From a virus: 47,143 bases of DNA. Below the pieces are notes generated by a model, which was not told where the DNA came from, searched no databases, and saw only the letters and a list, made by a program, of their open reading frames with translations. The position numbers were made by a program, and so were the translations under genes. This document shows, one piece after another, positions 25,045 through 27,267 of this stretch. Position 1 is the first letter of the stretch, and each line of letters opens with the position of its first letter. The stretch lies in IMG/VR virus record IMGVR_UViG_3300027796_000018, positions 1 through 47,143 of that record. One strand, given 5' to 3'.

Positions 25045-25062
25045 TTATGCTGTTCAGCATAA
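25045..25062 (+). repeat. 18-base palindrome at array entry
   Basis: TTATGCTG, TT, CAGCATAA; perfect arms. Followed by TTTATGTTAGGCTG with GTTAGGC (25068-25074) fitting GTTRRRY. Mirrors 10646-10663. Confidence 0.7.
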
Positions 25063-25083
25063 TTTATGTTAGGCTGACAACTA

Positions 25084-25109
25084 CGGTATAACCGCAAGCG
25101 CTTATACCG
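25084..25109 (+). promoter_or_regulatory. Leader hairpin, cassette 1
   Basis: CGGTATAA pairs with TTATACCG around an inner CCGC/GCG element. Lies between the GTTAG box and AAAGGAG of the gene at 25132. Confidence 0.7.
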
Positions 25110-25131
25110 ACACGTTGCAAAAGGAGAAATT

Positions 25132-25401
25132 ATGAAGAGCGTTTGGAAGTTCCCAATCGAAATCACCGATGAGCAGAAAGTGTTTATGCCGCGAACGGCA
25201 GCGATTCTTTCCGTGCAGGTACAGTATGGAACGCCATGCATTTGGGCGTTGGTTGATACCGAAGAACAAAAAGCAGAACGAACGCTTATTGTTCACGGAA
25301 CAGGGCACCCGTGCGTTTGTGACGCTTCGGAGTTTATCGGGACGTTTCAGATTGAGGGCGGGCAGCTCGTGTTCCATTTGTTTGAAAAGAAGGAAGCCTA
25401 A
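25132..25401 (+). CDS. Cassette 1 protein, DUF7352-like
   Basis: An 89-residue protein: MKSVWKFPIEITDEQKVFMP, then AAILSVQVQYGTPCIWALVD, HGTGHP and EFIGTFQIEGGQLVFHLFEK. I recognise this pattern as a small family found in many phages (DUF7352-like), function unknown. AAAGGAG lies before ATG 25132. Its TAA stop is inside the GCCTAAC R'' box of the following attC-like site. Confidence 0.8.
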   Translation: MKSVWKFPIEITDEQKVFMPRTAAILSVQVQYGTPCIWALVDTEEQKAERTLIVHGTGHPCVCDASEFIGTFQIEGGQLVFHLFEKKEA

Positions 25402-25453
25402 CAACTGCTTCAACTCGACTCGCGGTAACTCGCGAGTTAAGCAAATGTTCGAC
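25396..25453 (+). repeat. attC-like site 1
   Basis: R'' GCCTAAC (perfect RYYYAAC), arms TGCTT/AAGCA and AACT/AGTT with unpaired C between them, inner CGCG/CGCG stem, R' GTTCGAC. Closely matches the truncated site at 11018 over its first 36 bases. Confidence 0.75.
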
Positions 25454-25464
25454 GGATTGACGCG

Positions 25465-25485
25465 CCGCATAACTGCGTCATGCGG
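25465..25485 (+). promoter_or_regulatory. Leader hairpin, cassette 2
   Basis: CCGCAT pairs with ATGCGG around AACTGCGTC. GAAAGGAG follows before ATG 25521. Confidence 0.65.
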
Positions 25486-25520
25486 ACGGTCAACTAAACC
25501 GCCCGAAAGGAGTAAACGAA

Positions 25521-25730
25521 ATGAAAAGGATAAACAGGCATAAACAGGTTCTAGCGTCGTTGAATCGTTACATGAAATCTAACTGTCATTTCACGGACGA
25601 TGAACAAACTTTTTTACTTATTACAGACGGCGTTGACTGTACTCGCGATGCAAGCGCGTTTTTTTATGCTGGTTTTATTCGGGGGCTTCGGGCGGCGTCG
25701 AACAACAAGTTCGAGCCGACTCGCGAATAG
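25521..25730 (+). CDS. Cassette 2 protein, hypothetical
   Basis: A 69-residue protein from ATG 25521, GAAAGGAG upstream. MKRINRHKQVLASLNRYMKS looks helical and basic. FLLITDGVDCTRDASAFFYA follows. The last nine residues (NNKFEPTRE) are read from the attC-like site itself, so the protein tail is supplied by the recombination site. No family recognised. Confidence 0.65.
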   Translation: MKRINRHKQVLASLNRYMKSNCHFTDDEQTFLLITDGVDCTRDASAFFYAGFIRGLRAASNNKFEPTRE

Positions 25731-25755
25731 CTCGCGGCTCAACTTAATGTTAGGA
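25697..25755 (+). repeat. attC-like site 2
   Basis: GTCGAAC box, arms AAGTT/AACTT, unpaired C, G-C, AGCCG/CGGCT, inner loop, then GTTAGGA. Lies partly inside the cassette 2 coding region. Confidence 0.65.
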
Positions 25756-25765
25756 CGACGGACAG

Positions 25766-25806
25766 CCGCATATCGGCTGCGCCAATACGCGGACAATCCG
25801 CGAAAG
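25766..25806 (+). promoter_or_regulatory. Leader hairpins, cassette 3
   Basis: Two short hairpins, AGCCG/CGGCT (25765-25779) and CGCGG/CCGCG, in the same place as the single hairpin of the other leaders, followed by GAAAGGAG. Confidence 0.5.
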
Positions 25807-25816
25807 GAGAAAGAGG

Positions 25817-25984
25817 GTGAAAACAATCGTAGTTAAGTGGGTTCCTGATGATGGTCAGTACGGCAAGGAAATGCGCGTTATCGAATCTGATCACCTGCGG
25901 TTCATTAAAGGTTCGCGTTTTGATTTTGGATTTTTCCAAATCGCCACCGATGAAGGTTATACGATTATATCGTTGCCTTATTAA
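25817..25984 (+). CDS. Cassette 3 protein, hypothetical
   Basis: A 55-residue protein starting GTG 25817, with GAAAGGAG upstream: MKTIVVKWVPDDGQYGKEMR, then FIKGSRFDFGFFQIATDEGY and ending ISLPY. Predicted all-beta. No family recognised. Too short for a 60-residue cut-off but has start signal, stop and cassette borders in order. Confidence 0.6.
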   Translation: MKTIVVKWVPDDGQYGKEMRVIESDHLRFIKGSRFDFGFFQIATDEGYTIISLPY

Positions 25985-25988
25985 GAGT

Positions 25989-26048
25989 TCCTAGCAACTG
26001 GATCAACTTGACAACTGAGTACCGTTGCAAGTTAAACCAATGTTGGAT
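25989..26048 (+). repeat. attC-like site 3
   Basis: TCCTAGC box (weak R''), arms TGG/CCA and AACTTG/CAAGTT, inner CAAC/GTTG, R' GTTGGAT (perfect GTTRRRY). Confidence 0.65.
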
Positions 26049-26059
26049 GGACGCTTTAG

Positions 26060-26080
26060 CCGCGTAACTGCGTTACACCG
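26060..26080 (+). promoter_or_regulatory. Leader hairpin, cassette 4
   Basis: CGCGTAACTGCGTTACACCG; GTAAC/GTTAC stem. Shares 19 bases with the leader at 10687-10707. Confidence 0.6.
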
Positions 26081-26123
26081 ACAACGCGCCAAGTTTTTGG
26101 CACAGATTACAGGGAGGAAGAAG

Positions 26124-26312
26124 ATGGAAGTTCCTAATCGTATCGAGGTAAAAATAGCGGCTGGCGTAATAGATGAAACCGACTGCGCAAAGTGTCCGGC
26201 GCGTGATTGCCACTGGGATCACGATTTTGGATGCGCTTTTGTTTGGTATAACTTGTTTAAACAAGGTGCCAAAAACACCGAACAAGCCAATCAACCTGAC
26301 TCGGGCAAATAA
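26124..26312 (+). CDS. Cassette 4 Cys-rich protein
   Basis: A 62-residue protein from ATG 26124 (MEVPNRIEVKIAAGVIDETD), GGGAGG upstream. CAKCPARDCHWDHDFGCAFV has a small metal-site look. The C-terminus (KNTEQANQPDSGK) is read through the left half of the attC-like site, and the TAA stop lies in its loop. An upstream ATG at 26025 lies inside the leader and is rejected. No family recognised. Confidence 0.65.
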   Translation: MEVPNRIEVKIAAGVIDETDCAKCPARDCHWDHDFGCAFVWYNLFKQGAKNTEQANQPDSGK

Positions 26313-26339
26313 CCCTCGCAGGTTATCAGCATGTTATGT
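26277..26339 (+). repeat. attC-like site 4
   Basis: ACCGAAC box, arms AACCTG/CAGGTT, CGGG/CCC inner pairing, then GTTATGT. Overlaps the end of the cassette 4 gene. Confidence 0.6.
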
Positions 26340-26349
26340 CGATGCTTCA

Positions 26350-26377
26350 CCATGTACCCGCAGTAGCGACTACATGG
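26350..26377 (+). promoter_or_regulatory. Leader hairpin, cassette 5
   Basis: CCATGTA pairs with TACATGG; inner CGC, AGTA, GCG with a C/A internal loop. GGGAGGAG follows before ATG 26397. Confidence 0.7.
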
Positions 26378-26396
26378 ATGAACCACGGGAGGAGAA

Positions 26397-26645
26397 ATGA
26401 GCCAGCTTGAACTAATAGAGAACGATGGAATTACAAACCGTTTTCTTGAATGGTTTGATGAAAACGAAAAACCAGACAATGAAGGAAGGCGCCGGTTTTT
26501 TTTGTGTTGGGATGACAAAAACGCTTTTTTATTGCCCGGAAATACGCGGAATAAAGATGGCTCTATTCCGCGTGCGCAAGCCTTTCATGCTAATCCTCAA
26601 GAATATATAGAAGCAGGATTCGTTCCGCGAGGTTGGGCAAAGTGA
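26397..26645 (+). CDS. Cassette 5 first gene, hypothetical
   Basis: An 82-residue protein: MSQLELIENDGITNRFLEWF, RRRFFLCWDDKNAFLLPGNT, then AFHANPQEYIEAGFVPRGWA. GGGAGGAG upstream. No family recognised. Its stop overlaps the next start (GTGA), so two genes share this cassette, which is less usual than one. Confidence 0.7.
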   Translation: MSQLELIENDGITNRFLEWFDENEKPDNEGRRRFFLCWDDKNAFLLPGNTRNKDGSIPRAQAFHANPQEYIEAGFVPRGWAK

Positions 26646-26890
26646 CATATATACCGCCAACAGAGTTTGTTAAGCTCCCGAAAGTAGTTCGGGATAATTA
26701 CCTTGAGATGGCCGCTGAACTTGCGGTTATCCATGGTTTATATGGAGGGCAGAAAATGCCAGAGGTAGCAGTAGTTCAGGAGATCGGCTTTTACAATGTG
26801 CCGACGGGCGGTTACATCGGATGGATAAACACCATCGATGGTAAGTATTTTATTGGTGTCGACGGCAAGATCAGTAAGCCGGAAATGTAA
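26642..26890 (+). CDS. Cassette 5 second gene, hypothetical
   Basis: An 82-residue protein from GTG 26642, overlapping the previous stop as GTGA (a TTG at 26633 is possible but less well placed). MTYIPPTEFVKLPKVVRDNY, then AELAVIHGLYGGQKMPEVAV and GGYIGWINTIDGKYFIGVDG. No family recognised. Translational coupling with the first gene suggests that they work together. Confidence 0.7.
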   Translation: MTYIPPTEFVKLPKVVRDNYLEMAAELAVIHGLYGGQKMPEVAVVQEIGFYNVPTGGYIGWINTIDGKYFIGVDGKISKPEM

Positions 26891-26893
26891 GAA

Positions 26894-26956
26894 ACATAAC
26901 AACGAGTTCGACCTGACAACCGCAAAAGCCGGTTGCAGGTCAACTCAATGTTAGAT
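26894..26956 (+). repeat. attC-like site 5
   Basis: Best example. ACATAAC box; arms GAGTT/AACTC, unpaired C, G-C, ACCTG/CAGGT; inner CAACCG/CGGTTG; R' GTTAGAT, fitting GTTRRRY. Confidence 0.8.
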
Positions 26957-26968
26957 GGATTCTTTAGC

Positions 26969-26995
26969 AGTATACCCGCCTACGGCGACTATACT
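26969..26995 (+). promoter_or_regulatory. Leader hairpin, cassette 6
   Basis: AGTATA pairs with TATACT; inner CGCC, TAC, GGCG. CCGGAGG follows before ATG 27023. Confidence 0.7.
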
Positions 26996-27022
26996 GACAC
27001 GAACTAAACCGGAGGAAGCGAA

Positions 27023-27211
27023 ATGAAAGTTGGCCAAAAAATAAAGGACAATGACCCGCGCGTAGGTAACAGAGTTCTAAAGATAATTGATTTCAATGGC
27101 GATTACGTTATAGCAAAACAAGGAAACCTTCATAGCGTGAGAATCAGAGCCGACCGGATTTATTCTGACGGAAAACCGCGCCGAAGTGGTTTCGCGCTTC
27201 TCGGTATCTAA
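27023..27211 (+). CDS. Cassette 6 protein, hypothetical
   Basis: A 62-residue, basic protein: MKVGQKIKDNDPRVGNRVLK, IIDFNGDYVIAKQGNLHSVR, ending RRSGFALLGI. The pattern resembles a small SH3-like barrel (a short KOW-like protein), low confidence. GGAGG upstream of ATG 27023. Its TAA stop is inside the ATCTAAC R'' box of the last site. Confidence 0.7.
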   Translation: MKVGQKIKDNDPRVGNRVLKIIDFNGDYVIAKQGNLHSVRIRADRIYSDGKPRRSGFALLGI

Positions 27212-27267
27212 CAACTGCTTCAACCTGACAAGCCCTAACGGCCTTGCAGGTTAAGCAAATGTTAGCG
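27206..27267 (+). repeat. attC-like site 6 (array end)
   Basis: R'' ATCTAAC (perfect), arms TGCTT/AAGCA, unpaired C, AACCTG/CAGGTT, inner CAAG/CTTG, R' GTTAGCG. The GTTA contains the stop codon of the convergent gene ending at 27262. Confidence 0.75.

Follow-up and report, generated by a model that had tools for sequence, protein, structure and literature searches.

Integrase-less cassette arrays in a phage genome, with attI-like start sites, structured leaders and spirochaete-type attC sites

Gene cassettes bounded by attC sites are already known in phages. Seventeen phage clusters of attC sites lacking integron integrases (CALINs), that of Tetrasphaera phage TJE1 among them, were published in 2023 (Qi et al., PMC9892861), and in E. 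coli IntI1 recombined five of the six phage attC sites assayed, which came from three virulent phages including TJE1, about as often as a class 1 control (PMC9892861). The present analysis concerns IMG/VR virus record IMGVR_UViG_3300027796_000018, a single metagenomic contig of 47,143 bases (51.6% G+C; the window, throughout, is this whole stretch), and an array of six small-gene cassettes at about 25.0 to 27.3 kb on its plus strand. An original prediction had described the attC-like sites of this array and knew of no well-described phage example, a statement that the published CALINs contradict. It lacked two items reported here, namely an attI-like site before each of two arrays and a structured leader at each cassette start. 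Phage cassettes as such are not new; what is new is the entry site, the covarying leader, the traffic between phages, and the paired spacer of the attC arms.

Like the window, TJE1 is a tailed phage without an integrase that carries attC-bounded small-gene cassettes, and its attC and leader types are those of the window; PMC9892861 mentions neither a leader nor spirochaetes. The window differs in having two arrays, both with an attI-like site. The chromosomal integrons of Treponema and other spirochaetes (PMC3607928) share the attC boxes, and their intI points towards attI and the cassettes in the same direction, as was seen in spirochaete genome G370. In contrast to these integrons, the window has no intI and its cassettes open with a long two-stem leader rather than a short hairpin. 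An integrase-less phage array opening with a host-type attI has been described in Shewanella prophage M16-3 (PMC9892861), but that array shares its cryptic prophage with a complete integron, whereas the window is a phage contig without any integrase, of a type common to unrelated phages. The AAC/AAD leader RNA (Rfam RF02912) is likewise a structured leader proposed for integron cassette expression; the phage leader gave no real match to it (17.1 bits, wrong strand, threshold 56) and lies inside each cassette, whereas RF02912 lies at attI.

The favored reading, with a probability of roughly 80%, is that the arrays are phage-borne integron platforms without an integrase, served by the integrase of the host. 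Each platform would comprise an attI-like entry site followed by cassettes of leader, small gene or genes, and attC. The host would provide an integron integrase of spirochaete type; this enzyme would fold the bottom strand of attC and cut at the GTT of R', inserting or excising cassettes either at the attI-like site of the phage or between one attC and another. As a result, phages with different backbones would share a pool of small accessory genes.

The attC sites and their paired spacer

With six attC sites in 1.9 kb and no intI gene, the array corresponds to a CALIN (at least two attC sites within a few kb, no intI) rather than to a complete integron, which holds intI within the element. 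No integron integrase or tyrosine recombinase was found among the window proteins (no match to TIGR02249 or PF00589), and a screen of 11 other phage records yielded no IntI. The six sites were recovered on the plus strand at 25.4-27.27 kb, after the six gene units where they had been predicted, together with the R'', L'', L', and R' boxes with AAC and GTT, the bottom-strand fold, and the four stop codons within the sites (25399-25401, 25728-25730, 26310-26312, and 27209-27211). The single unpaired C ascribed to the left arm is an extrahelical base (C on the top strand, G on the bottom) at the class 1 position: the extrahelical G of the L arm occupies column 48 of alignment A2 in 6/6 sites, with the spacing of class 1 sites, and a second extrahelical base, a T, is also placed as in those sites.

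An attC covariance model, R1, was built solely from nine sites of class 1 and Shewanella integrons, the longest of which had their variable tips trimmed, and was run with filters off. Its four best matches in the window were attC 6 (27207-27266, the array end), attC 5 (26895-26955), attC 2 (25697-25754), and attC 1 (25397-25452), at 27.8, 25.2, 16.1, and 14.2 bits, respectively, with E-values of 0.0002 to 0.5 and all on the bottom strand, as expected. The remaining predicted sites, attC 3 (25989-26047; 10.2 bits) and attC 4 (26278-26338; 9.4 bits), scored within background. A paired-arm search of the plus strand (45-75 nt), which requires little beyond AAC and GTT enclosing paired arms, yielded six clusters scoring at least 25, compared with 1.2 expected in shuffles (maximum 5); same-strand clusters scoring at least 33 numbered two in the window and none in 40 shuffles. 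The paired-arm scores of attC 3 and attC 4 are 27.5 and 26, respectively.

A search with a degenerate attC pattern identified 18 stretches on 16 viral contigs; bacterial genome contigs contributed four more, two of which carry the label Spirochaetales. TJE1 was among the viral contigs, and its third attC shares 93% identity with attC 1; no copy of attC 1 was found among 72,556 plasmids. Genome G370 encodes an integron integrase (TIGR02249, 457 bits, far above the curated cut-off), and the array downstream of its intI contains more than 10 attC sites with identical boxes TAACAACTGCTTCAACCTGAC...CAGGTTAAGCAAATGTT. The integron reading of the repeats is thus upheld both by an independent model and by the same site type beside a bona fide integrase in a spirochaete chromosome. 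That they are ordinary hairpins, such as terminators or phage repeats, resembling attC by chance is extremely improbable. Some weak terminator-like matches do occur in the region, but such an origin is refuted by the independent model, the extrahelical bases, the chromosomal arrays linked to IntI, and the near-identical TJE1 site. Ordinary terminators and chance were excluded by R1 and by the shuffles.

The variation of the arms with retained pairing (TGCTT/AAGCA, GAGTT/AACTC, and AAGTT/AACTT), as originally described, is real. Across 20 distinct phage arm pairs the L box is 98% Watson-Crick, and the spacer, scored over five positions, is Watson-Crick in 90/100 cells versus 59 expected on shuffling; none of 500 shuffles reached the observed level of arm pairing. 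Since the spacer cells pair far above shuffles, the variation is compensatory. All known single-strand attC sites are said to share an unpaired central spacer (PMC2727003), whereas in the phage sites the spacer is paired and covarying, with one or two mismatched positions persisting beside the R box. In nine spirochaete chromosomal pairs the spacer is 98% Watson-Crick, again with covariation. The paired spacer is a feature of the whole spirochaete site type, and because the IntI-linked spirochaete arrays have it too, it is read as a variant of attC.

Array-start sites and cassette traffic

Both arrays of the window, at 25.0 and 10.6 kb, open with the same 28-nt element (TTATGCTGTTCAGCATAATTTATGTTAG at 25045-25072 and TTAGGCTGAACAGTCTAATTTATGTTAG at 10646-10673, plus strand). 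The element recurs at array starts of other phages (L018, L020, L022, and L024), and a pattern search added contigs L090 and L091, where a cassette leader again follows it. In G370, a site immediately preceding the first cassette, some 400 nt downstream of intI, shares 19/21 positions with the core of the element; the best agreement in 300 shuffles of the G370 region was 16/21. Across 393 spirochaete genomes the attI-like pattern matched exactly only at the G370 site, and a one-mismatch match in G275 lies at a cassette start on the intI contig, with intI about 7 kb away; the pattern was composed after the G370 site had been seen, and these matches are therefore support and not a blind test. 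At the level of sequence, each array begins with a match to the attI of a known intI, and the element is probably an attI. Because each array opens with such a site, the phage arrays would be entry platforms, more than CALINs.

An alternative considered improbable is that the start sites are secondary (attG-like) GTT sites in phage DNA at which cassettes were captured by chance. Integrases can use GTT sites other than att sites, off-target insertion is a live topic in the literature, and the start sites of L019, L023, L025, and L026 are less like the consensus. Chance capture is difficult to reconcile with a 28-nt element that occurs twice in the window and again in several further phage records, is missing from the empty site of L004, and matches a host attI in its core. 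Regarding a Pc promoter, no sigma-70-like site was found on the plus strand at 24.9-27.4 kb; phage transcription from upstream is possible. In L091 the attI-like site is followed by a short host-type hairpin, and this combination hints at possible exchange between the phage and host cassette pools.

At 10.6-11.1 kb, where the original prediction had also pointed, one further cassette was found on the plus strand, but its attC is truncated. The cassette contains a zinc-finger-like gene of 96 amino acids (10733-11023; phrog_16244) followed by the left half of an attC, without right arm and R' (11020-11056; 97% identity to the left part of attC 1). The whole insertion is absent in the sister phage L083, which is 86-92% identical around 10.6 kb and has about 30 nt where the cassette sits. 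In the sister phage L082 an unrelated gene (L082:4740-5450), perhaps a homing endonuclease, fills the same gap. These findings suggest that this gap between head genes is an insertion hot spot.

Gain and loss of cassettes between relatives was evident: L002, L004, and L083 lack the arrays, while L017 and L018 have other cassettes. In the close relatives L004 and L002 the transglycosylase and spanin-like genes that flank the window array are adjacent, and the L004 junction is devoid of both the attI-like site and cassettes; in L018, two different cassettes lie next to the homologous spanin-like gene. Cassette order is wholly different between phage arrays. Six other phage records hold the leader of cassette 3 (25756-25802) at 94-100% identity; the genes behind it there are mutually unrelated, except for one gene common to L017 and L026, and unlike that of cassette 3. 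The leader and attC of cassette 2 are identical in L017, where the gene is 51% identical at the amino acid level, and the fetched part of L017 has no nucleotide similarity to the window outside the cassettes. A prophage of G370 holds two cassettes with phage-type leaders and has the same leader as cassette 2.

These comparisons bear on a second alternative, namely that the arrays are static relics. In that case illegitimate or homologous recombination would have brought them in from a host integron on a single occasion, no integrase would still act on them, and their variation between phages would stem from phage homologous recombination at attC and leader. The phage has no integrase, the attC at 11020 is truncated, the near-identical leader and attC blocks could be used as homology, and a phage Cas4-like exonuclease is encoded nearby. 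Nonetheless, this origin is judged unlikely: relics would lose arm pairing, which has instead been kept via many compensatory changes, and it accounts poorly for two arrays at two places, each opening at an attI-like site, and for the wholly different cassette orders.

The reading as platforms served by a host integrase is the preferred one, and under it the host of the phage is probably a spirochaete, whose IntI would act on the phage sites. Several points weigh against it. The window host is deduced from the site type, while the attI-like role of the array-start element and recombination at the window sites are deduced from sequence, the latter rather than from reads or excised circles. Two of the six attC sites (3 and 4) score at background with R1, itself a small independent model, and the solitary copy is probably locked because its attC is truncated. 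Finally, engineered spacer pairing in the Vibrio VCR site cuts recombination (PMC2727003); therefore, either this integrase would tolerate pairing or the phage sites may be weak.

A structured leader at each cassette start

Directly after the R' GTT, each cassette opens with a leader of about 45 nt that forms a two-stem hairpin with a bulged A, followed by the ribosome site and start codon. In a sequence-only alignment of 12 leaders, 90.4% of pairs were standard and covariation was 0.686, compared with 0.225 when shuffled and at most 0.115 with slid partners; a model-fitted alignment of 38 distinct leaders gave 90.6% standard pairs and covariation of 0.624 versus 0.180 shuffled. The leader model R2 matched the window at seven cassette starts and nowhere else. 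On the plus strand these are the leaders of cassettes 3 (52.4 bits) and 5 (26340-26387; 48.8 bits), both members of the model seed, and five outside it, those of cassettes 1 (25075-25119; 32.5 bits), 2 (25454-25495; 24.7 bits), 4 (26049-26090; 22.3 bits), and 6 (26957-27005; 21.1 bits) and of the solitary cassette (10676-10717; 33.0 bits).

The leader is present in 16 phage contigs, including the window and L090, and in two prophages. Among the 393 spirochaete genomes, convincing matches occurred in two, both adjoining attC and phage genes (terminase, portal, head protein); matches in G383, G254, and G208, without attC, were taken as chance. R2 gave no match in class 1, Vibrio, and Shewanella arrays, and no matching family was found in Rfam 15. 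Most of about 14 chromosomal cassettes examined in G370 open instead with a short hairpin of type GGACGCCTTCGGCG, perhaps the ancestral form of the phage leader. The G370 short hairpins (GGACGCCTTCGGCG, GGACCCTTCGGGCC) precede GAGGA (L070, reverse strand, whole locus). A possible pseudoknot was observed in three leaders (L015:625-690, L024:4374-4440, and L026:3030-3100), with a GGGGC loop that might pair with GCCCC immediately ahead of the ribosome site (CAAGCCCCATTGGAGG).

The leader probably acts in cis on the expression of its gene. A role in expression is favored by the position of the leader, with the cassette border on one side and the ribosome site on the other, and by its invariant unpaired A residues, which resemble a ligand or protein site. 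Two specific mechanisms were rejected. Freeing of the ribosome site was not significant in a thermodynamic test, accessibility being 0.58 for the real leader, 0.54 when shuffled (p = 0.12), and 0.59 with the leader deleted (p = 0.55). A promoter was discarded since promoter-like matches were fewer than in shuffles and the sequence varies while pairing is kept. The accessibility values would also fit a leader that works in recombination as a DNA element, forming a second single-stranded fold beside R', and not in expression as RNA, as would the pairing: G-U pairs, an excess of which would mark the top strand as folded RNA, are not favored over A-C pairs (11 versus 19 of 524 cells). This alternative is rather doubtful, given that the leader is invariably placed after the border of the cassette and ahead of its gene's ribosome site, that its unpaired A residues are conserved, and that chromosomal cassettes sharing this attC type lack it and mostly have only the short hairpin.

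A broader proposal, put forward tentatively and at somewhat less than even odds, is that the leader represents a new class of structured element, specific to phage cassettes, that supplies whatever gene is captured with a standard expression (or mobilization) signal. Genes would be swapped within a conserved frame from leader to attC, and the phages would run a cassette economy of their own on the host integrase and may assemble new cassettes.

Phage backbone, cassette cargo and significance

The minus strand of the window encodes terminase, portal, major head protein, tail sheath, and tape measure genes, while the plus strand carries the Cas4-like exonuclease, a transglycosylase-like lysis gene, and the array. 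Positions 1-6708 and 40030-47143 share 80-92% identity across 6.7 kb (tape measure, sheath, and neighbours), with sheath proteins 94% identical, which reflects either duplication of a tail module or an assembly that ran round a circular genome of about 40 kb and on into a second strain variant; because of this similarity of its ends, the window may join strain variants. A tRNA-Met (CAT) gene lies at 31105-31176 on the minus strand, and about 190 nt from it, on the same strand, is a near-perfect 90-nt hairpin (30826-30915, -47.5 kcal/mol). The stretch 30825-30952 is 97% identical with L002, compared with about 80% for nearby genes, and is a possible phage non-coding RNA.

The cassette genes are small and all on the plus strand. 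Cassette 1 encodes a protein of 89 amino acids (25132-25401; DUF7352/phrog_3848). Those with no assigned function are the genes of cassettes 2 (25521-25730; 69 amino acids), 3 (25817-25984; 55), 4 (26124-26312; 62), and 6 (27023-27211; 62) and both overlapping open reading frames of the fifth unit (26397-26645 and 26642-26890; 82 each). The search for functions recovered only DUF7352 and the zinc-finger-like phage family. In other phages, large cassettes (L024:3559-4300 and L027:345-1046) encode DNA methyltransferase-like proteins with a DPPY/DLPY motif, as annotated in TJE1, and are plausible anti-restriction cargo.

How cassettes move between cells and where new cassettes originate are open, long-standing questions. 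Spirochaete-type attC sites have been reported on six aminoglycoside-resistance cassettes of mobile integrons (PMC8352920), and because of this occurrence a phage vehicle for such sites is of wider concern. Phages of different backbones carry spirochaete-type entry sites and cassettes, with gain and loss visible among them. A phage route is testable, since each component (host integrase, attI-like site of the phage, donor attC) can be named, and the covariation of the leader and the pairing of the spacer offer specific new features for experiment.

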